Shown here piece by piece: positions 2,893 to 15,660 of a DNA stretch of 41,489 bases. The notes below the pieces were generated by a model. The model did not search any database. It was not told the origin of the DNA and saw only the letters and a program-made list of their open reading frames with translations. Made by a program: the position numbers and the translations under genes. The stretch is from Chlorobiaceae bacterium (GTDB lineage: Bacteria; Bacteroidota; Chlorobiia; Chlorobiales; Chlorobiaceae), in contig JAAXXK010000012.1 in NCBI GenBank assembly GCA_013334525.1, positions 14,800 to 56,288 on the forward strand, written 5' to 3'. Every line of letters starts with the position of its first letter. The stretch's first letter is position 1.

Positions 2893-4623
2893 TTAAACCA
2901 TGGTTTTAGGATTCAGCCGGGCAAGCAGCATGTCTGAAATAGAGCCGCCGGCAGGGACCATCGGGAACACCATATCCTTTCTGACGACACGGAATTCGAC
3001 AAACGCGGGGCCGTCGTTGTAGGCGAGGGCATCCGTGATGGCTTTTTTCGCCTCTTCCTGCGTGGTGGCGCAGACAGCCTTGCACCCGAACGCTTCGGCC
3101 AGCTTGACGAAATCGGGGTTACTCGACTCAAGGTCGGTGAACGAATATTTCTCCTTGTGGAACAGCTCCTGCCACTGACGGACCATGCCGAGATAGGAGT
3201 TGTTGATCAGGAATATCTTGATCGGCACCTTGTTGTAAACGGCCGTCACCATCTCCTGGATGTTCATCATCAGGCCTCCATCGCCGCAGAACAGGGCCAC
3301 CGGACGGTCGGTGACGCCGAACGCGGCTCCGATCGCTGCCGGCAGGCCGAAGCCCATCGTGCCGAGCCCTCCGCTGGTGATGATCGAGCGTGGTTCGGTG
3401 AACTTGTAATATTGCGCGGTCCACATCTGGTGCTGGCCGACGTCGGTCACGATCACCGCATGTCCTTTCGTCTGCTTTGAGACCTCGTCGATGACGAACT
3501 CGGTTTTCAGCGAATCCTCTCCGTCGGAGTAGGTCATCGGGCACTGCTCCTGCCACGCATTGATCTGGGCGAGCCACGGGCTCCTGCTCTCATGGCTCTT
3601 CGGAAGCTCGTCGAAAATTGAGGCCAGGAAATCCTTTGCATCGCCGACGACCGGCAGGTCGACCTTGATGTTCTTGTCGACGTTGGTCGGGTCGATGTCG
3701 TTATGGATCTTGAAGGCCTGCGGGGCGAAGGTGTCCACCTTGCCCGTGACGCGATCGTCGAACCTTGCGCCCACGGCAATGAGCAGGTCGCAGTTGTTGA
3801 CTGCCTGGTTGGCCCAGAATGTGCCGTGCATGCCGAGCATGCCCATCGACAGCGGATTGTCGGCAGGGAACGCCCCGAGCCCCTGGAGGGTCATCGTGAC
3901 GGGAATATCCTGGGCGATGGCGATCTTTCGCAGCTCTTCGGAGGCTCCGGAGGTAATGACGCCGCCGCCGATGTAGAAGAGCGGGCGTTTGGCTTTCGCG
4001 ATCATCTTCGCAGCCTTCTGGACCTGGTTCGAGTGGCACTTGATCGTTGGCTTGTATCCACGGATATCGACACTTTCAGGCCATTCGAACGCACACTCGG
4101 CGTTGAGCACATCTTTCGGCATGTCGACCAGCACCGGTCCTGGCCGGCCTGTTGTGGCCAGGAAGAATGCCTTGCGGATGGTGGAGGCAAGCTCCCTGAC
4201 ATCCTTGACAAGGAAGTTGTGCTTGGTGATCGGGCGGGTTATGCCCACGATATCCGCTTCCTGAAAAGCGTCGTTACCGATGAGCGAGCTCGGCACCTGT
4301 CCGGTGAAGACCACCATCGGCGTGGAGTCCATGTAGGCATTCGAGATGCCCGTGACCGTATTGGTGGCGCCGGGGCCCGAGGTGACGAGCACCACGCCCG
4401 GCCTGCCGGTGGCACGCGCATAGCCTTCAGCCATATGGGTCGCGCCCTGTTCGTGGCGGACGAGGATATGCTTGATGTCCTTGACATCATGCAGGGTTTC
4501 GTAGACCTTCAGCAGGGCTCCGCCGGGGTAGCCGAAAATATACTCGACGTTTTCACGCCGCAGACACTCGAAAAATATCTCGGATCCGTTCAGTTTCTGT
4601 CCGGGTTCTGTCATGGTTTGCAC
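2893..4623 (-). CDS. ilvB: acetolactate synthase large (catalytic) subunit
   Basis: This thiamine-diphosphate enzyme condenses pyruvate with pyruvate or 2-oxobutyrate, the first common step of Val/Ile/Leu synthesis. The product is 576 residues. The N-terminal PYR domain has the cofactor-activating Glu in HEQGATHMAEGYARATG. The middle domain contains IGGGVITSGASEELRKIA. The C-terminal PP domain has the GDGGLMMN...NNSYLG ThDP/Mg motif. Met4 (MTEPGQK) is an equally plausible start. It sits between ilvD and ilvN on the same strand. Confidence 0.96.
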   Translation of the reverse strand: MQTMTEPGQKLNGSEIFFECLRRENVEYIFGYPGGALLKVYETLHDVKDIKHILVRHEQGATHMAEGYARATGRPGVVLVTSGPGATNTVTGISNAYMDSTPMVVFTGQVPSSLIGNDAFQEADIVGITRPITKHNFLVKDVRELASTIRKAFFLATTGRPGPVLVDMPKDVLNAECAFEWPESVDIRGYKPTIKCHSNQVQKAAKMIAKAKRPLFYIGGGVITSGASEELRKIAIAQDIPVTMTLQGLGAFPADNPLSMGMLGMHGTFWANQAVNNCDLLIAVGARFDDRVTGKVDTFAPQAFKIHNDIDPTNVDKNIKVDLPVVGDAKDFLASIFDELPKSHESRSPWLAQINAWQEQCPMTYSDGEDSLKTEFVIDEVSKQTKGHAVIVTDVGQHQMWTAQYYKFTEPRSIITSGGLGTMGFGLPAAIGAAFGVTDRPVALFCGDGGLMMNIQEMVTAVYNKVPIKIFLINNSYLGMVRQWQELFHKEKYSFTDLESSNPDFVKLAEAFGCKAVCATTQEEAKKAITDALAYNDGPAFVEFRVVRKDMVFPMVPAGGSISDMLLARLNPKTMV

Positions 4624-4649: not shown

Positions 4650-6332
4650 TCAGTATGATGTTTTCAGGATTGCGCCGGTATTTGCCGATGTGACCATCTG
4701 CGCATAGCGGGCGAGGTATCCTCTCTTTATTTTTGGCTCGAAAGCCGGCAGGGCGGCGATTCTCTGCTTTATCGTCTCGTCGTCGAGTTCGACGGACATG
4801 GTGCGGCCCGGGATGTCGATGACGATCGTATCTCCCGTTTCAAGGGCGGCTATGGGACCCCTTTCGGCTGCTTCCGGAGAAACATGGCCGATACATGCGC
4901 CTCTCGATCCTCCGGAAAAACGACCGTCGGTGATCAGTGCGACCGAGTCGCCCAGTCCGCGCCCCATGATGGTGCTGGTCGGGGAGAGCATTTCAGGCAT
5001 ACCCGGACCGCCGCGCGGACCTTCGTAGCGTATGACCACAACGTCGCCCGCCTTGACATCCCCCGACATGATTCCCTCGATGGCGTCATCCTGGCAGTCG
5101 TAAACCTTTGCCGGGCCGGTGTGCTTCATCATCGACGGGCTGACCGCGCCGGTCTTCACAACAGCCCCGTTCGGCGCGAGATTCCCGTAAAGCACGGCCA
5201 GGCCTCCTGTTGCCGAATATGGGTCGCTGACCGGCCGGATGACCTTGCTGTCGAGTATTTCCGCCCCGGCGATGTTCTCTCCAAGCGTCTTGCCGGTGAC
5301 GGTCATGGCCGAAAGGTCGAGCAGCCCGTCGATTTTCGACAGCTCCTTCAGGATAGCCGATATACCGCCGGCACGATCCACATCCTCAATGTGCACCTCT
5401 ATGGTGGCAGGGCTCACTTTGCAGATGTATGGCGTTTTGGCGGAGAGGCCGTTGAGTTCCGCAAAATCGAAATCAAGCCCCGCTTCGTTGGCGATAGCCA
5501 GCGTATGCAGGATGGTGTTGGTGCTTCCGCCCATTGCCAGATCAAGTGCGAAGGCGTTGAGTAGGGCCTGGCGCGTCAGGATCTGCCTTGGCCTGACATC
5601 CTCCCTGACCAGGTCGACGATCCGTCTCGAAGCGGTTTTGACCAGTTCCAGCCTTCTCGGGTCGATGGCGAGAATGGTGCCGTTGCCCGGCAAGGCGAAG
5701 CCGAGCGCCTCGCAGAGGCAGTTCATGGAGTTGGCCGTGAACATGCCGGAGCATGAACCGCAGCCTGGACATCCGCACTCTTCGATGGTCTGGAGTTCAT
5801 CCTCGCTGATCTCGCCGGTGCTGAACTTGCCGACGGCCTCGAAGACCGAAATGAGGTCAACGGTCTTGCCTTCAGGGGTATGGCCGGCCTGCATTGGCCC
5901 GCCTGAAACGAAAATGACCGGAACGTTGGTCCTGAGCGCCCCCATCATCATGCCGGGAGTGATCTTGTCGCAGTTCGGAATGCAGACCAGCCCGTCGAGG
6001 CGGTGGGCTTCGACCATGGTCTCGACCGAATCGGCGATGATTTCACGGCTGGCGAGGGAATAACGCATGCCGACATGTCCCATGGCGATGCCGTCACAGA
6101 CTCCTATGGTATTGAACTCGAACGGGACGCCGCCGGCCTCGCGCACCGCCTCCTTGGCGATCCTGCCCAGTTCCTGGAGATGGGCGTGGCCGGGTATCAG
6201 TTCGTTGAACGAGTTGCAGATCCCGATAAAGGGCTTTGAGAAATCGCTTTTGGATTTAACGGCTCCGGTAGCCTTGAGGAGGCTGCGGTGGGGAGCCTTC
6301 TCAAATCCTTTTTTTATGGTGTCAGATCTCAT
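4650..6332 (-). CDS. ilvD: dihydroxy-acid dehydratase
   Basis: IlvD dehydrates 2,3-dihydroxy acids to the 2-oxo acids that are the immediate precursors of valine and isoleucine. The 560-residue protein is full length. The Fe-S ligand cysteines lie in [17 protein letters not shown] and [18 protein letters not shown], and the [19 protein letters not shown] and SDGRFSGG-like segments of the IlvD/Edd family are present (here [11 protein letters not shown]). It is the first gene of the operon. The start at 6332 lies 24 nt after the U-tract of a predicted terminator in the leader, so its expression is probably set by attenuation rather than only by the promoter. Confidence 0.96.
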
Positions 6333-6355
6333 CGGTGTAAATGGTTAGTGCAATT

Positions 6356-6391
6356 AAAAAACAATATCCGGGGCCTGCCTGTCCCGAAGCC
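6356..6391 (-). terminator. candidate attenuator terminator before ilvD
   Basis: On the minus strand the arms UUCGGG (6383-6388) and CCCGGA (6367-6372) form a 6-bp stem, followed by a U-rich tract UUGUUUUUU (6356-6364). This is the shape of an intrinsic terminator and it lies 24 nt before the ilvD start. The 5' arm, extended as GGCUUCGGG (6383-6391), is also complementary at 8 of 9 positions to CCCGUAGCC (6452-6460) at the end of the leader reading frame. The terminator and that antiterminator therefore exclude each other. Folding energies were not calculated. Confidence 0.6.
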
Positions 6392-6448
6392 TTGGAGTCT
6401 GATGTATTGTCGTGGAAAATACGATGGACTTGGGAAAGGTCTGACGGG

Positions 6449-6628
6449 TCAGGCTACGGGAATAAGTACCTGTACCAGCGGTACCGATACTGCCTGGCCA
6501 ATGCCGGAGAAGAGGATGTTCTGGTGGCGACGCGCAGCCAGGCTGGCGGTCGTCCGGTATGAGGGGCCCAGATCGCCTGTACAACAGGTGAATGCGGCCT
6601 CGAAACGATTGATGGTCGAAAACGGCAT
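6449..6628 (-). CDS. candidate branched-chain amino acid leader peptide
   Basis: This is a 59-codon frame in the ilvD leader. Most of it is unremarkable, but it ends AVSVPLVQVLIPVA: in the last 13 codons there are five Val (all GTA), two Leu and one Ile. It stops 58 nt before the 5' arm of the predicted terminator. Its final codons (CCC GTA GCC) form one side of the possible antiterminator. A small GTACC/GGTAC hairpin (6472-6484) falls inside the Val codons. This is what is expected of a leader peptide in which ribosome stalling at low Val/Leu/Ile controls ilv transcription, as in enterobacterial ilv operons. Cautions: it is long for a leader peptide, and no clear Shine-Dalgarno sequence precedes the ATG. 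The functional part could be translated from elsewhere. Confidence 0.5.
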   Translation of the reverse strand: MPFSTINRFEAAFTCCTGDLGPSYRTTASLAARRHQNILFSGIGQAVSVPLVQVLIPVA

Positions 6629-6674
6629 GGCTATGGATCAGTTGTCGCGCCAGTTTAAGGAATAAATTGCAAGC

Positions 6675-6703
6675 AAGTTACATTTTCCCAACTATTAAGT
6701 CAA
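6675..6703 (-). promoter_or_regulatory. candidate sigma-70 promoter of the ilv-leu operon
   Basis: On the minus strand, TTGACT (6698-6703) and TAACTT (6675-6680) are separated by exactly 17 nt. Transcription would start near 6668, giving a leader of about 335 nt that contains the short reading frame and the terminator. The -35 match is strong and the -10 match moderate. The site sits where the sequence changes from GC-rich leader to AT-rich spacer. Confidence 0.45.
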
Positions 6704-6844
6704 GGAGATCGACTGTCAAAACTATTGAAAAACAGAAAATATTTACATAAACCAAAGTGGTGTAAAAAATTAAAAAATCTTATTTTTGTTAACTAAAGAG
6801 GTCGCCACATGCTGCTCATGCCCCAACCCTAAAATGTCAGCGTT

Positions 6845-8422
6845 ATGTTGAGTATCCAGCCCCTGTCTTCACAGGATTTACCTTCGTTTTTCCTCCTTCT
6901 GACCATTATCGGCTCATTTCTGCTCCTCGGTGAACTCCTGACCCGAAAGTTCAACGTCAGCTCCCTGGTTGTTCGAAAAGTGCTTCACCTGAGTATGGGA
7001 GTGGTGATTTTCTTCATTCCATCCCTCTTCACCTCCAACGCCTATCCTCTGCTGGTCTCCCTGCTGTTTTCCGGAATCGGCCTTTTGAGCCTGCGTACCG
7101 GATTTTTCAGGTCGTTGCATGGTGAACCCGGCAAATCCGGGCCTGAAGAGGCTGTTGTCAGTTACGGGCCGGTGCTGTTCCCCCTGGTGTTATTTTTCCA
7201 GTTGCTCTTTCTCTGGGATTCGCATATCTGGATACTGCAGACCTCGATGCTGGTGCTCGGCATCAGCGACGCCCTTGCAGCCCTTGTCGGCACTGCCTTT
7301 GGAAGCCGCCACATAGAGCATATGACCAGGAGCCGGAAGACTGTCGAGGGCTCGATCGCCATGTTCGTCTCAAGCCTGCTCATTCTTTCCGCCTCACTGT
7401 TCCTGTTCAGGGGCTCATTCACCGGCGGTCTTGCAGGACAGCCGATATGGATGCTTTTATGCCTCGCCCTGCTTCTGGCCCTTATCGCCACGGCTGTAGA
7501 GGCTTTACTCTCCTATGGCCTTGACAACCTCTTTATTCCGGCATCGATAGCCTATGTGCTTTTCCTGATCGACGTAAACAAAATGGTGACCATCGAGGGG
7601 TTCCTCATGGGCGGCCTTTTCGCCCTTGCAGTGGCGCTCTTTTCGATCAAGGTCAAGTTCCTCAACAACAGCGGAGCCACGGCGACATTCCTGCTCGGGT
7701 CGACGATTTTCGGAATAGGGGGGCTTGACTGGACCGTGCCGCTGCTGACCTTCTACTTTCTCTCCTCGATCCTCTCGAAGCTTGGTCACAAGCGCAAGGC
7801 GAAATTCGATCTCGTGTTTGAAAAAGGATCGCAGCGCGACGCCGGCCAGGTCTATGCGAACGGCGGCGTAGCATGGATCATGATGGTGATCTATTCGCTG
7901 ACCGCTGACCCGAACATTTTCTTCGCCTATCTCGGCACGCTTGCCGCTGTGCAGGCTGACACCTGGGCCACCGAAATCGGCACTATGTGGCCAAACCCGA
8001 AGGCGATTCTCGTCACCACCTTCAAGCCGGTTCCTGTCGGGACTTCAGGCGGCGTATCCATACCGGGGACTTCGGCTTCGTTCCTCGGCTCCCTTTTAAT
8101 CTGTTCGAGCGCCGTGCTCCTGAACGTTAAGTGGATCGGCACGGTTGGTATTGTACCGTCGCTTCTGATCATCGGCATCGCCGGTCTTTTCTCAAGCCTC
8201 GTCGACAGCTTTTTCGGGGCGACGGTTCAGGCGCAGTATTTTGACCCGATCAGGGAAAAGGTGACCGAACGAACCCACAGCATCGCTCCCGACGGAAGCA
8301 AGGTGCTCAATGAACTTATCAAGGGATATCATTTTGTAAACAACGATATGGTCAATACATTGTGTGCAATATCCGGTTCCGTCGTCGCCTATTTCGTCGT
8401 TCGGAATCTTGTGACTTTTTAA
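6845..8422 (+). CDS. fused prenyl-alcohol kinase (VTE5-like) and prenyl-phosphate kinase (VTE6/DUF92-like)
   Basis: This 525-residue polytopic membrane protein appears to join two families. Residues about 15-245 resemble the SEC59/dolichol kinase and phytol kinase (VTE5) family: RKVLHLSMG near 44-52, GISDALAALVGTAFG at 139-153 with RKTVEGS at 164-170 (the CTP-binding region), and YGLDNLFIPASIAYVLF at 224-240. Residues about 250-525 match DUF92/TMEM19, the family of phytyl-phosphate kinase VTE6: NNSGATATFLLGS, DAGQVYANGGVAW, ADTWATEIG, KPVPVGTSGGVS and SLVDSFFGATVQ. Together they would convert free phytol, geranylgeraniol or farnesol to the diphosphate in two CTP-dependent steps, recycling alcohols freed from (bacterio)chlorophylls. 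Substrate is inferred. It lies 26 nt before tolQ on the same strand, perhaps by chance. Confidence 0.75.
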   Translation: MLSIQPLSSQDLPSFFLLLTIIGSFLLLGELLTRKFNVSSLVVRKVLHLSMGVVIFFIPSLFTSNAYPLLVSLLFSGIGLLSLRTGFFRSLHGEPGKSGPEEAVVSYGPVLFPLVLFFQLLFLWDSHIWILQTSMLVLGISDALAALVGTAFGSRHIEHMTRSRKTVEGSIAMFVSSLLILSASLFLFRGSFTGGLAGQPIWMLLCLALLLALIATAVEALLSYGLDNLFIPASIAYVLFLIDVNKMVTIEGFLMGGLFALAVALFSIKVKFLNNSGATATFLLGSTIFGIGGLDWTVPLLTFYFLSSILSKLGHKRKAKFDLVFEKGSQRDAGQVYANGGVAWIMMVIYSLTADPNIFFAYLGTLAAVQADTWATEIGTMWPNPKAILVTTFKPVPVGTSGGVSIPGTSASFLGSLLICSSAVLLNVKWIGTVGIVPSLLIIGIAGLFSSLVDSFFGATVQAQYFDPIREKVTERTHSIAPDGSKVLNELIKGYHFVNNDMVNTLCAISGSVVAYFVVRNLVTF

Positions 8423-12094: not shown

Positions 12095-12559
12095 ATGACA
12101 AATGTCAAACCAAGAGCAAGATACCTGTACATTCCTGCTCTTCTGATTCTTGGTGCATGCTGCTGTGACAATGTGGTCGTGCCACCACCGCCGCCACCGC
12201 CGCCACCACCGCCGCCGCCGCCCGTAGTGGCACCAATGAGCGATGTATTCTTCGATTTTGACCGTTCAGAGCTGACCGCTCCGACGCAGTCACAGCTGAA
12301 GACCAACGCGAACTGGATTGCTGCCAACGCCGGCAAGAAGGTTATTCTTGAAGGCCATTGCGACGAACGCGGCACAAACGAGTATAACATTGCTCTCGGC
12401 GAGCGCAGGGCCCAGTCAGCCAGGGAATACCTTGTGAGTCTCGGCGTCGACCCGGCACGTCTCAAAACCGTCAGCTACGGCGAAGAGAGGCCTTTTGATT
12501 CCGGGCATAACGAAGAGGCCTGGGCAAAGAACAGAAGGGTTCATTTCGTTGAGGATTAA
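12095..12559 (+). CDS. pal: Pal, peptidoglycan-associated lipoprotein (first copy, poly-Pro linker)
   Basis: The 154-residue outer-membrane lipoprotein has a lipobox LGAC with the acylated Cys at residue 22, then two more Cys and an uninterrupted run of 14 prolines. The OmpA-type peptidoglycan-binding domain spans about residues 47-154: [33 protein letters not shown] and the ending [10 protein letters not shown]. The NxxLGxxRA-type diaminopimelate-binding motif is present. A good GGAGG lies 6 nt before the ATG. It anchors the outer membrane to the wall and binds TolB. The polyproline tether replaces the usual flexible linker and should be stiff and extended. Confidence 0.92.
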
Positions 12560-12650: not shown

Positions 12651-13187
12651 ATGAGACATACTTTACCATGTATTATCGGTGCCGCCATGATTATTCTGGC
12701 CGGTTGTTCTTCAAAAAGTGCAGTATCTACCGGTGATGCGTCCGGCGCAGGATCGGGTGCAGGATCGGGTACCGGAGCCGGAGTCGTTGTTGAAGACGGT
12801 TCAGGAGCAGGTAAGGGTGCTGGTTCAGGCTCAGGTGCTGGAAATACTTTTGCCGGTCCGGTACTTGGCGATGTATTTTATGATTTTGACAGCTCTGCGC
12901 TGAGCCCTGAAGCCCAGGATCAGCTTAAGCAGAACGCCGTATGGTTCCAGAGGAACTCTGTTCCGGCAGTGATCGTTGAAGGCCACTGTGACGAGAGGGG
13001 AACCGACGAATACAATATTGCGCTCGGTGAACGCCGTGCAGTTGCAGCCAAAGAATATCTGGTCAACCTCGGAGTCGGCAATGGCCGTATTACGGCGGTC
13101 AGTTTCGGTGAAGAGCGTCCTTTCGATCCTGGCCACAACGAAGAGGCCTGGGCAAAAAACAGAAGAGCCCATTTTTTAACGAAATAA
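12651..13187 (+). CDS. Pal-like lipoprotein (second copy, Gly/Ser/Ala linker)
   Basis: The 178-residue lipoprotein has a lipobox LAGC with the acylated Cys at residue 19. A low-complexity linker of GAGSG/GSGAG repeats spans about residues 30-67, and an OmpA/Pal domain about 70-178 ([58 protein letters not shown]). The domain is clearly a paralogue of the preceding pal, while the linker is of a wholly different type (flexible, not poly-Pro). It probably also binds peptidoglycan. Whether it binds TolB, or acts in another envelope complex, is not known. Confidence 0.88.
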
Positions 13188-13266: not shown

Positions 13267-15660
13267 ATGATGAAAACCAGATCACTGCTGTTTCTCCCTT
13301 TCGTTGTACTTTCTGCGTGTGCATCGCAAACAGATCTGAGCTACGTCAAAGGGCAGGTATCCCAACTGAAGGAAGAGTCGCAGGTAATAAAGAGTCAATC
13401 AGCAGGCTCCTACTCTGAAATTACCCAATACCGTGAAGAGGTGGCAACACTTCATGGCGGTATCAGTGAGTTGCGGCACGATCACAGCGAGTCGCTCAGG
13501 CGGCTTGATGTTGAGGATTCGCTCCTTGTAAAAAAGAATATTGAACTCGAGAACCGGCTTGCCAGGCTGGAGAAGTATCTCGACCTGATAGATGCTGCTC
13601 CCAAGTCGCCGGCAATACCTGCACCGCCGCCATCCCGTGCAGGCTCGGACACGCCGGCACCAGCACCTGCACCTGCTCCTGCGATCAGGACTGCTCCAGG
13701 AGCGGTAGAAACGCCTGTAAAGCCGGTATACCCGGTATACCCGGTTTCCGAAGTCACCGCGCCAGCCGCCGCCCCCGCAGCAGCTGAAGCCACGGCCCCG
13801 GCACCAGCACCAGCACCAGCACCAGCAGAGGCCCCGATAAAACCAGAAATCCCTGCTCCCGAAGTTGCCAATGCACCAACCGCCGCCCCGGTAGCAGCTG
13901 AAGCACCAGTCCCAGCGCCGGCAGCAGAGGATACCACTATAAAACCATATATTCCGGCCCCAGCTGTAGTATCTTCGCCGTCAGTCGTTTCAGCAGCAGT
14001 TGAAGCACCAGCAACGGCTCCTGCGCCATCAGAAGCTTCGGTAAAACCGGAAATTCCGGCCTCAGCCGTAGTATCTTCGCCTTCAGCCGTTCCTGCAGCA
14101 AATGACGTCCCAGTAGCGGCTCCTGCGCCATCATCAGAAGCTCCGGTAAAACCGGAAATCCCGGCCCCAGCCGTAGTATCTTCTCCATCAGTCTTTCCGG
14201 CAGCCACCAAAGCCCCGGAACCTTTCGCTGCGCAGCCCATAGCCGTTGCTCCAGCGACGACAGAAGCACCGGTCAAGCTTGATGCGCCAGCACCAGCAAT
14301 TTCAAAGCAATCATCTCCAGTTAAAGGACGGACGCCGAAGTCCCGAGCTGTGGCATCAACTTCGGTTAAACCGGCAGTCGCATCTGCCCTTGAAGCACCA
14401 GCACCTGTTGTTGCATCGGCACCAGTGCCTGTCGTCGCACCCTCCATAGCCGCTGCTCCAGCAGCGTCAGAAACACCGGCCAGGCTTGAACCCCCGGCGC
14501 CCGTTGTCGCCAAGGAACCCGCTCCGGTGAAAGCATGGACACCGAAGTCCGTAACTGTTGCGTCAGCTCCTGTTAAGGCCCCAGCCACTGCGGCATCTCC
14601 CGCACCGGAGAGTTCGCCAATAGCAGTAGAATCACCTGCACCAGCAGTCGCCAAGGAGCCCGCTCCGGTGAAAGCATGGACACCGAAGTCCGTAACTGTT
14701 GCGTCAGCTCCTGTTAAAGCCCCAGCCCCTGCGGCATCTTCCGCACCGGAGAGTTCGCCAAAAGCCGCACAAGCACCTGCGCCCTCTGTTGCGCCGTCTC
14801 CGGCAGCCGCTCCTGCCGCTGTTACCCTCAAGCCTGAAGCGCCAGCACCGGCAGTCGCCAGGGAGCCAGCTCCGGTGAAAGCATGGGCAGCAAAGCCTCG
14901 GAATGCCAAGTCTCGAACTGAGGTGTCAGCTCCGGTTGAAACACCTGCTCCGGCAGCTGTTCCTGCCCCTGTCGTCAAGCCGACCGAAGCTCCGGTAACG
15001 GCCGTTGTTCAGGAGCCAGCTCCAGTCAAGGCATGGGCGGCAAAACCACGAAATTCCGCTACGGCACCTGTTGTAGCTGTGCCTGCGCCTGTAGTTTATA
15101 CCCCAGCCCCAGCTCCTGCTAACAGCGAAACGCCGGCCCCGGTACCAGCCTGGGCAAGGGTCAGGACTGTTGCTGAAGCAAAGGCAGCCAGGAATAAGAC
15201 AACCGCAGCTCCAGTTCCCGCTGAAACTCCAGCTCCGGTTCCGGTAGCATTTGTTGCCCCGGTTCAGGCGAAAAACCAGAGTTCGGTTCCTGCAACTGGT
15301 GAAGATGCCATGCTCCAGAACGGGCTGGCTAAACTGCAAATGGATGATTATGCAGGCGCCCGCGTCGATTTCACCTCATTCATGTCGCAGAACCCGAACT
15401 CGCCTCAGGTTGGTGAAGCGCAGTTCTACATTGCAGAATCCTATTTCAACGAGAAATGGTTTGAAAAGGCAATTCTTGAATATCAGGTGGTGATCGCCAA
15501 ATACACCAAGAGCAGCAAACGGCCGGCTTCGCTTTACAAACAGGCGCTATCTTTTGAGAAGATAGAGGACGAAGTCAACGCTAATGCCCGTTTCAAGGAT
15601 GTTATCCGTAACTATCCATTGTCTCCCGAAGCCAAGCTTGCCAAAAAGAGGCTCAAATAA
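13267..15660 (+). CDS. cpoB: CpoB/YbgF-like Tol-Pal accessory lipoprotein with giant Pro/Ala-rich insert
   Basis: The product is 797 residues against roughly 250-350 usual for this family. Residues 1-18 form a lipoprotein signal (LSAC). Residues about 24-110 are a heptad-like coiled coil (VKGQVSQLKEESQVIKS...LENRLARLEKYL). Residues about 112-670 are a low-complexity region dominated by Pro, Ala, Val, Glu and Ser. Its repeating motifs include APVKPEIPAPAVVSSPS (several copies) and EPAPVKAW (four copies). Residues about 675-797 are the TPR-type tol_pal_ybgF domain (NGLAKLQMDDYAGARVDFTSF...GEAQFYIAESYFNEKWFEKAILEYQ). CpoB coordinates peptidoglycan synthesis with outer-membrane constriction. The insert would give a very long periplasmic tether. 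The gene ends the tol cluster and is followed by a good terminator. Confidence 0.8.
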   Translation: MMKTRSLLFLPFVVLSACASQTDLSYVKGQVSQLKEESQVIKSQSAGSYSEITQYREEVATLHGGISELRHDHSESLRRLDVEDSLLVKKNIELENRLARLEKYLDLIDAAPKSPAIPAPPPSRAGSDTPAPAPAPAPAIRTAPGAVETPVKPVYPVYPVSEVTAPAAAPAAAEATAPAPAPAPAPAEAPIKPEIPAPEVANAPTAAPVAAEAPVPAPAAEDTTIKPYIPAPAVVSSPSVVSAAVEAPATAPAPSEASVKPEIPASAVVSSPSAVPAANDVPVAAPAPSSEAPVKPEIPAPAVVSSPSVFPAATKAPEPFAAQPIAVAPATTEAPVKLDAPAPAISKQSSPVKGRTPKSRAVASTSVKPAVASALEAPAPVVASAPVPVVAPSIAAAPAASETPARLEPPAPVVAKEPAPVKAWTPKSVTVASAPVKAPATAASPAPESSPIAVESPAPAVAKEPAPVKAWTPKSVTVASAPVKAPAPAASSAPESSPKAAQAPAPSVAPSPAAAPAAVTLKPEAPAPAVAREPAPVKAWAAKPRNAKSRTEVSAPVETPAPAAVPAPVVKPTEAPVTAVVQEPAPVKAWAAKPRNSATAPVVAVPAPVVYTPAPAPANSETPAPVPAWARVRTVAEAKAARNKTTAAPVPAETPAPVPVAFVAPVQAKNQSSVPATGEDAMLQNGLAKLQMDDYAGARVDFTSFMSQNPNSPQVGEAQFYIAESYFNEKWFEKAILEYQVVIAKYTKSSKRPASLYKQALSFEKIEDEVNANARFKDVIRNYPLSPEAKLAKKRLK
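14506..14787 (+). repeat. cpoB: two tandem 141-bp units inside cpoB
   Basis: Nearly identical DNA begins at 14506 and again at 14647, giving a 141-bp (47-codon) period. Each unit encodes VAKEPAPVKAWTPKSVTVAS followed by APVKAPA and APESSP. The first part of each unit, to about 14620 and 14761, is almost exact and the rest is degenerate. This indicates recent in-frame duplication within the Pro/Ala-rich region. Confidence 0.8.

Follow-up and report, generated by a model that had tools for sequence, protein, structure and literature searches.

What controls the branched-chain amino acid operon of this member of the Chlorobiaceae? The stretch of DNA that we analyzed (41,489 nt; "the window") is G000:C32:14800-56288, from a genome assembly of 79 contigs. 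Its minus strand encodes, in this order, ilvD (4650-6332), ilvB (acetolactate synthase large subunit; 2893-4623), ilvN (acetolactate synthase small subunit; 2401-2880), ilvC (ketol-acid reductoisomerase; 1369-2367), and leuB (3-isopropylmalate dehydrogenase; 302-1483). We named these genes with NCBIfam models, and each match is over the model's cut-off: TIGR00110 (808.9 bits), TIGR00118, TIGR00119, TIGR00465, and TIGR00169, respectively. The listed frame of leuB overlaps ilvC, and its match to TIGR00169 begins at residue 45. Farther along the contig, on the same strand, is a leuA-like gene (G000:C32:11214-12743) that scores under its family's cut-off. At 6845 is a divergent gene, whose match to TIGR00297 is under the cut-off.

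A preliminary description of the window had proposed that Val, Leu, and Ile codons control ilvD by ribosome-mediated attenuation. Our results support this proposal, as the codon cluster and the stems are conserved in the family. We are confident that the ilvD leader is a ribosome-mediated transcription attenuator: comparison and folding support the leader frame, its codon cluster, a helix between segments 2 and 3 of the RNA (2:3), a possible alternative helix between segments 3 and 4 (3:4), and the switch point. All of the attenuator features before ilvD are on the minus strand.

A leader frame that ends with Val, Ile, and Leu codons

The leader frame has 59 codons, from an ATG to a TGA stop codon (6449-6628). 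As previously described, its final 13 codons (6452-6490) include five Val codons (all GTA), two Leu codons, and one Ile codon. Given the frequency of V/I/L in nine genes from the window, the probability of 8 such codons in 13 is about 0.005. The leader does not fold better than shuffled sequences (z = -0.64 and z = -1.0), and a simple terminator scan of the window did not list the hairpin in the ilvD leader. Taken alone, the window is only suggestive; the support comes from its relatives.

We found ilvD in 82 of 86 genomes from the family at E 1e-100, and we took the upstream DNA from 78 of these 82 (not G008, G056, G066, or G067). With one more locus (L031), this gave 79 upstream regions. The last 440 nt before ilvD are identical in L031 and in L013, which is from the window's genus, and L031 was excluded from our alignment (A1) as a duplicate. 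We also excluded L122, L128, and L138, in which the motif is absent, so A1 contains 75 of the 78 regions.

In all 75 rows of A1, the stop codon is at identical alignment columns (58 TGA and 17 TAA), and in 74 of them, an ATG frame reaches this shared stop. (L025 has no ATG frame.) So, nearly all of the aligned regions have a short frame with a cluster of codons for the end products: in the 74 leaders, V/I/L account for 49.9% of the last 20 codons, versus 11.5% of the remainder. Within the window's genus, 92% of the 99 Val codons among the last 20 codons of the leaders are GTA, versus 8% of the 275 Val codons in nine genes from the window; these counts are not independent because the leaders are related to each other. 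Across the 74 leaders, the number of V/I/L codons is not correlated with the strength of the U tract (rho = 0.08). We found no relative of the leader peptide in a collection of viral contigs.

Distribution of the element within the Chlorobiaceae

A model of the element, R1, has one match in each of 78 of the 98 genomes from the order, and all of these are in Chlorobiaceae. They include G008, G056, and G066, none of which were used in building the model. (In G066, the match and a piece of ilvD are on different contigs.) For each genome, we scored R1 on no more than 35 first-look candidates, and the filters were strict, so it may have overlooked additional weak copies. An additional hit beyond the family (in G135, E = 0.005) lies inside a sigma-factor-like frame, and we judged it to be due to chance.

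Thus, the element is present in 78 of the 82 Chlorobiaceae genomes that have ilvD. The motif is lacking from three of the others, namely G021 (locus L138), G028 (L122), and G038 (L128). In the fourth, G067, we have just a partial ilvD, whose match starts only at residue 218. The other genomes of the family without a match to R1 (G017, G048, G071, and G081) have no match to ilvD either. The three loci that lack the motif retain ilvD and a similar promoter-like stretch, not the attenuator, and a very short frame is left. Two of these three genomes are small (1.6 and 1.8 Mb).

Three other leaders (L120, L130, and L137) have kept the hairpins, have just 3 U in their best 8 nt, and end with SVR. 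Of their last 16 codons, 5 to 6 encode V/I/L. Judging from their sequences, these look like attenuators in decay.

As for trpE, a comparison of 12 loci from the genus gave no shared Trp-rich frame upstream of it (3 of the 12 choices of trpE are doubtful).

Alternative pairings downstream of the leader frame

The stop codon is 6 to 11 nt before segment 2 (column 54 of the alignment) in all 75 leaders. Segment 2, the 5' arm of the putative antiterminator, is CCUUUCCCAAGUC in the window (6427-6439), and segment 3, which could pair with either segment 2 or segment 4, is GGCUUCGGGACAGG (6378-6391). The core of segment 2 (CCCAAGU) pairs with the core of segment 3 (CUUCGGG), and compensatory changes are present. 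Segment 2 reads GCCGnUCCCAAGU/C in the sister genus, and segment 3 reads GGCUUCGGGAACGGC.

Because RNAalifold returned no pairs for the consensus fold of the leaders, we counted a stated structure across the rows instead. The 2:3 helix (6439-6427 with 6391-6378) has standard pairs in 89.9% of cells, versus 24 to 50% when one arm is slid. Two-sided changes were found in 28 cells, as compared to 7.8 in shuffles, and the covariation score is also above that of the slid versions. For instance, G-C is replaced by U-A at columns 57-126, and C-G by U-A at columns 70-115. Two other measures, the number of pairs with two-sided changes (6) and the number of pair types (17), were not above their values after a slide of -1 (7 and 18, respectively); of 500 shuffles, 14 and 25, respectively, reached them. 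The 2:3 helix was first spotted by eye; it was later ranked by a covariation scan of all helices. The core of 2:3 had the top rank for the sister genus (53 rows) and also for a set of 72 rows, which excludes six leaders that are lacking or degenerate and one duplicate. Within the window's genus (19 rows), two parts of 2:3 ranked second and tenth.

The preliminary description had noted a different pairing, with 8 of 9 positions complementary between the end of the frame (6460-6452) and 6391-6383. This pairing is real in the window, and it is not the conserved antiterminator: across 74 distinct rows, it has 66.1% standard pairs and 2 two-sided changes, versus 1.7 in shuffles. Its covariation score was reached by 5 of 500 shuffles and its percentage of paired cells is higher than when it is slid, so it might have a minor role.

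Segment 4 (CCCCGGA, 6367-6373) is the 3' arm of a terminator-like hairpin, and it is followed by a U-rich tail, UAUUGUUUUUU (6356-6366). The stem and the tract that were noted before ilvD are indeed there, at 6388-6356, 23 nt ahead of the ATG. The 3:4 helix has standard pairs in 83.9% of cells, with one-sided changes only: there is no two-sided change, and its pairing is not above that of shuffles. If segment 3 serves two partners, then the missing covariation is expected; still, there is no positive covariation for 3:4. An intrinsic terminator between the leader and ilvD is thus recognizable as sequence only, while a mutually exclusive antiterminator that shares segment 3 is indicated by the covarying 2:3 helix. 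The conservation that was anticipated for relatives of this leader was seen for the codon cluster and, as covariation, for the antiterminator, but not as covariation for the terminator.

We also considered whether the leader contains a protector (1:2) hairpin. The columns for such a hairpin across the stop codon (CUGA-CCCG-UCAG, 6441-6452) could pair in 99% of cells from the 19 leaders of the same genus. In equilibrium folding, its probability is low (0.03 to 0.23; a range of 0.03 to 0.07 was also obtained). The protector hairpin of a classical attenuator is weakly predicted here.

Folding suggests a switch as the ribosome nears the stop codon

We computed partition functions while masking the RNA stepwise from its 5' side, and we measured the distances from the first base of the stop codon. 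For the 53 leaders from the sister genus, with the RNA free from 10, 13, or 19 nt, the mean probability of the antiterminator was 0.79, 0.46, and 0.00, respectively, and the mean probability of the terminator was 0.09, 0.26, and 0.53. The 19 leaders from the window's genus shift more weakly, with the antiterminator falling from 0.64 (RNA free from 1 nt) to 0.11 (from 16 nt) and the terminator rising from 0.06 to 0.38. With segment 2 masked, the mean probability of the terminator is at most 0.53 in the sister genus and at most 0.38 in the window's genus. In the window itself, the antiterminator is at 0.84 to 0.96 with the RNA free from 1 or 4 nt (0.96 at 4 nt); the terminator is at 0.67 to 0.74 from 7 to 19 nt (0.70 at 13 nt) and at 0.11 at 25 nt. 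So, the window's leader flips already at 7 nt, ahead of the ribosome reaching the stop codon.

A ribosome at the stop codon should cover segment 2, given the spacing of 6 to 11 nt and the shift at 13-19 nt in the sister genus. From the usual size of its footprint, we infer that such a ribosome would mask roughly the length at which the structure switches.

In leaders from the window's genus with no part of the region masked, segment 3 pairs mostly with the end of the leader frame or the nucleotides after its stop codon (0.54 to 0.66). In the minimum-energy fold of the window's leader, its partner is the CCCG directly after the stop. According to these models, such pairing would also block the terminator, and because segment 3 is sequestered when the region is free, a leader that is not translated is predicted to read through. 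In this respect it would differ from the textbook trp leader.

Promoter-like elements and start sites

The promoter hexamers of the preliminary description are present upstream of the leader frame at 6703-6675: a -35-like element, TTGACT (6698-6703), and, after a 17-nt spacer, a -10-like element, TAACTT (6675-6680). A generic sigma-70 scan favors an overlapping candidate, TTGACA-17-AATAGT (6719-6691), which is likewise upstream of the leader. The pattern TTG-N20-TA[AG]NTT, which was composed only after the conserved sequence had been seen, is found upstream of the leader's ATG in 19 of 19 leaders from the same genus (versus 0.4% of shuffles) and in 50 of 55 leaders from the sister genus (versus 1.5% of shuffles). 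The generic sigma-70 score is below the null in the sister genus and barely above the null in the window's genus.

None of the 74 leaders has a Shine-Dalgarno-like site at its start. The lack of a ribosome-binding site had been considered a weak point of the attenuator, but such sites are rare at other starts as well: we found them at just 2 of 79 ilvD starts and for 2 of 10 other frames in the window (so that 77 and 8, respectively, are without).

Proposed mechanism and alternatives

We propose that transcription starts about 40 nt before the ATG of the leader and that a ribosome translates the leader. If tRNAs for Val, Ile, or Leu are short of charge, the ribosome would stall in the terminal codon cluster. 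Segment 2 would then be free to pair with segment 3, and the polymerase would read on into ilvD-ilvB-ilvN-ilvC-leuB. If charged tRNAs are plentiful, the ribosome would arrive at the stop codon and would cover segment 2, which is 6 to 11 nt farther on; segment 3 would pair with segment 4, forming a terminator ahead of the U tract.

Alternatively, the leader might act via translation, by affecting access to the start of ilvD, or via Rho, instead of by an intrinsic terminator. Some of the distant leaders described below (L184-L189 and L034) are similar in layout and have no canonical U tract, and the 3:4 helix is modest in folding, which favors this idea. Within the Chlorobiaceae, on the other hand, there is a U tract after 3:4 (the best 8-nt window averages 6.3 U across 74 leaders), and for 77 of 79 ilvD starts, there is no Shine-Dalgarno-like site that could be hidden. 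We consider control by these other routes to be improbable.

It is quite unlikely that segments 2 and 3 are the binding site for a metabolite or a protein, as in a riboswitch or a protein-binding leader, with the short frame being secondary. In our judgement, CCCAAGU and CUUCGGG do look more conserved than pairing demands. Yet the codon cluster and the stop position are conserved along with the hairpin, and in a search of positions 5500-7500 of the window against Rfam (E up to 5), we found only one sub-threshold match, to an sRNA, which lies outside of the leader. There was no match above threshold for the window region or for 11 related loci, which leaves no candidate T-box, ppGpp riboswitch, or other Rfam element among the covariance models.

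Could the leader frame encode a functional small membrane protein, with the RNA structure as a separate element? Many leaders have the same frame length (57 codons in 32 of the 74 listed frames, and 39 of 74 leaders have an ATG exactly that far from the stop), and the C-terminal tail is hydrophobic. But A/F/M/W make up just 9.1% of the last 20 codons, versus 20.1% of the remainder (74 leaders), so the V/I/L tail is not simply hydrophobic. Also, the stop codon keeps its position with respect to segment 2. In 24 pairs of close relatives, changes before the last 20 codons are spread almost evenly over the three codon positions (93, 109, and 111), which means that there is no visible constraint at the protein level in that part; the last 20 codons have 35, 20, and 36 changes, respectively. 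We give very little credence to a membrane protein. Finally, the statistics for the window alone are modest enough that a random frame, hairpin, and U tract might come to mind, but chance is already refuted by the comparison: R1 is found in 78 genomes, the stop position is fixed, and there are compensatory changes.

This leader provides comparative evidence for leader-peptide amino-acid attenuation in green sulfur bacteria, and its sensor codons span each of the branched-chain amino acids. It could be tested directly, thanks to its rare GTA codons and to the three lineages without the element.

Similar leaders outside of the Chlorobiaceae

The preliminary description placed the attenuator in a green sulfur bacterium. 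This holds in the Chlorobiaceae, and leaders that end with V/I/L also occur elsewhere in the phylum. In a second family of the order, two genomes have ilvD, both with a V/I/L-ending leader; the order's ten other genomes do not have ilvD. Outside of the order, among homologs from the phylum whose IlvD is 62-74% identical, 16 of 17 are preceded by a V/I/L-ending leader (at least 50%). Among the homologs with lower identity (about 42-48%) that we retrieved, 3 of 20 have such a leader. Given the leaders in the sister family and before the 16 homologs, the element is not confined to green sulfur bacteria. In 14 of the 16 (not L186 or L196), there is a stem 4 to 9 nt past the stop (p at most 0.04 by shuffling). 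As for the stop-proximal stems of the two loci from the second family, that of L179 was matched by 2.5% of shuffles, and that of L180 is not significant (p = 0.24).

In a multi-phylum set of 78 ilvD loci (from the best 80 of 593), 7 have a leader whose last 16 codons are at least 55% V/I/L, versus 0.4 expected. These are from a Bacteroidetes MAG, Caldithrix abyssi, three Marinimicrobia, CSSED10-310, and Staphylococcus rostri. The Marinimicrobia leaders have no stop-proximal stem.

To compare the distant leaders, we aligned 19 of them: 15 of the 16 from the phylum, along with L034, L032, L179, and L180. L196, L033, L035, L036, L038, and L049 were left out; since loci without the stem were omitted, this set is selected for the stem. 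In these 19 leaders, GGUCAAUCCC/GGGAUUGACC is paired in 89.9% of cells, with 8 two-sided changes versus 2.7 in shuffles. Fragments from segment 3 onward formed an alternative hairpin that uses the G run in 19 of 19 cases (minimum-energy folds, without a shuffle control).

The layout is common to the leaders from Chlorobiaceae and to those from outside; their common descent is unproven. R2, a model built from the distant leaders, misses the ilvD leaders of the window and of nine other Chlorobiaceae loci that were supplied to it. When R2 was run on Chlorobiaceae genomes at E = 0.5, the ilvD leaders were unmatched, and its two matches were on contigs other than those with ilvD. Because R2 is blind to the Chlorobiaceae leaders, the model does not support common descent, and the Marinimicrobia leaders without the stem also count against it. 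R2 did match L042, which it does not include, weakly but at the right place (E = 1.9), and L042 has a V/I/L-ending frame there that is listed only if TTG starts are allowed. Weak hits of R2 in G233 and G122 have no ilvD downstream, and we judged them to be due to chance.

With these results in mind, we tentatively suggest that the ilvD attenuator might be one ancient family across several phyla around Bacteroidota. Its members would have a leader of 50-odd codons that starts with M.NT.KNI and ends with LLGII...LG, and a stop codon that is followed, after 4 to 10 nt, by a conserved GGUCAAUCCC/GGGAUUGACC antiterminator, whose G run can re-pair with the C run after it. Most descriptions of leader-peptide attenuators portray them as evolving quickly. 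Should the similar layouts from other phyla prove to be homologous, then such attenuators can persist across phyla. If the family really is ancient, then this attenuator has lasted far longer than is generally expected of such leaders, and the outer members, which have no U tract, would have changed their read-out and kept the sensor.

In several of the leaders from L184-L189, which lack the canonical U tract, we noticed UAUAUCU and a second hairpin near AGAGG before ilvD. These features might point to a translational read-out. In two loci from Desulfobacteraceae MAGs (L096 and L105), the region upstream of ilvD has short frames that are rich in V/I/L and, after them, hairpins with U tails; from their sequences, these are perhaps separate attenuators. 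L219 has a short frame, MFANIIVVVVVILCTQTV, before a distant type of Bacteroidota ilvD, and is another candidate for a separate attenuator.

Comparison to known systems

In E. coli and Salmonella, ilvGMEDA and ilvBN have leader-peptide attenuators with clustered Val, Leu, and Ile codons. The Chlorobiaceae element shares with them a leader frame with these codons, alternative antiterminator and terminator structures, and a location before ilv genes. It differs from them in that the leader most often has 57 codons, with the control codons at the end only; ilvD is the first gene; there is no Shine-Dalgarno-like site at the leader's start; and the 1:2 hairpin is weakly predicted. Also, the six leader peptides that we scanned have no match above the cut-offs of Pfam or NCBIfam. 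(There was one sub-threshold match, to DUF1576, with E = 0.0044.) The curated models for the enterobacterial ilv leader peptides did not match these six either, and given this lack of a family match, it is plausible that the Chlorobiaceae element is independent of the enterobacterial attenuators.

According to PMC5794164, the ilvD leader of Staphylococcus aureus is similar in that it is rich in codons for branched-chain amino acids, has a terminator and an antiterminator, and precedes an ilv-leu operon with ilvD first. That leader is distinguished by its length of 26 amino acids, its response to Leu, its putative ribosome-binding site, and its antiterminator, in which GAAUGG pairs with UUGUUU from the tail. 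Corynebacterium ilvB-II and the ilvB-OMG motif, as summarized in PMC10272879, include a conserved upstream frame that is rich in these codons; attenuation was inferred. By that description they are like the Chlorobiaceae element, except that they stand before ilvB. The ilvD motif of Veillonella is also a conserved RNA before ilvD; it has been reported from Veillonella only, as a weak riboswitch candidate with long stems, and the part of PMC8632094 that describes it mentions no leader frame.

Naville and Gautheret (2010; PMC2965389) state that leader peptide systems had been shown, to their knowledge, only in Proteobacteria and Actinobacteria, and they add Firmicutes; they also mention a T-box before hisS in Chlorobia. 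By one account, Chlorobia were sampled too sparsely to judge (PMC4833913). The main text of a survey of RNA motifs that included Chlorobiales has no word beginning with ilv and no mention of "leader peptide" (PMC3766115). We recognized no report of an ilv leader attenuator from Chlorobi among the open-access papers that we searched; Lopatovskaya et al. 2010, which may contain such a prediction, was not among them.

Other features of the window

On the plus strand, an open frame of 125 codons (6288-6665) is antisense to most of the leader. Elsewhere in the window, at 13267-15660, is a frame of 797 codons whose long middle part is repetitive and rich in Ala and Pro. It is preceded by two neighboring frames (12095-12559 and 12651-13187), which we take to resemble Pal-type lipoproteins.
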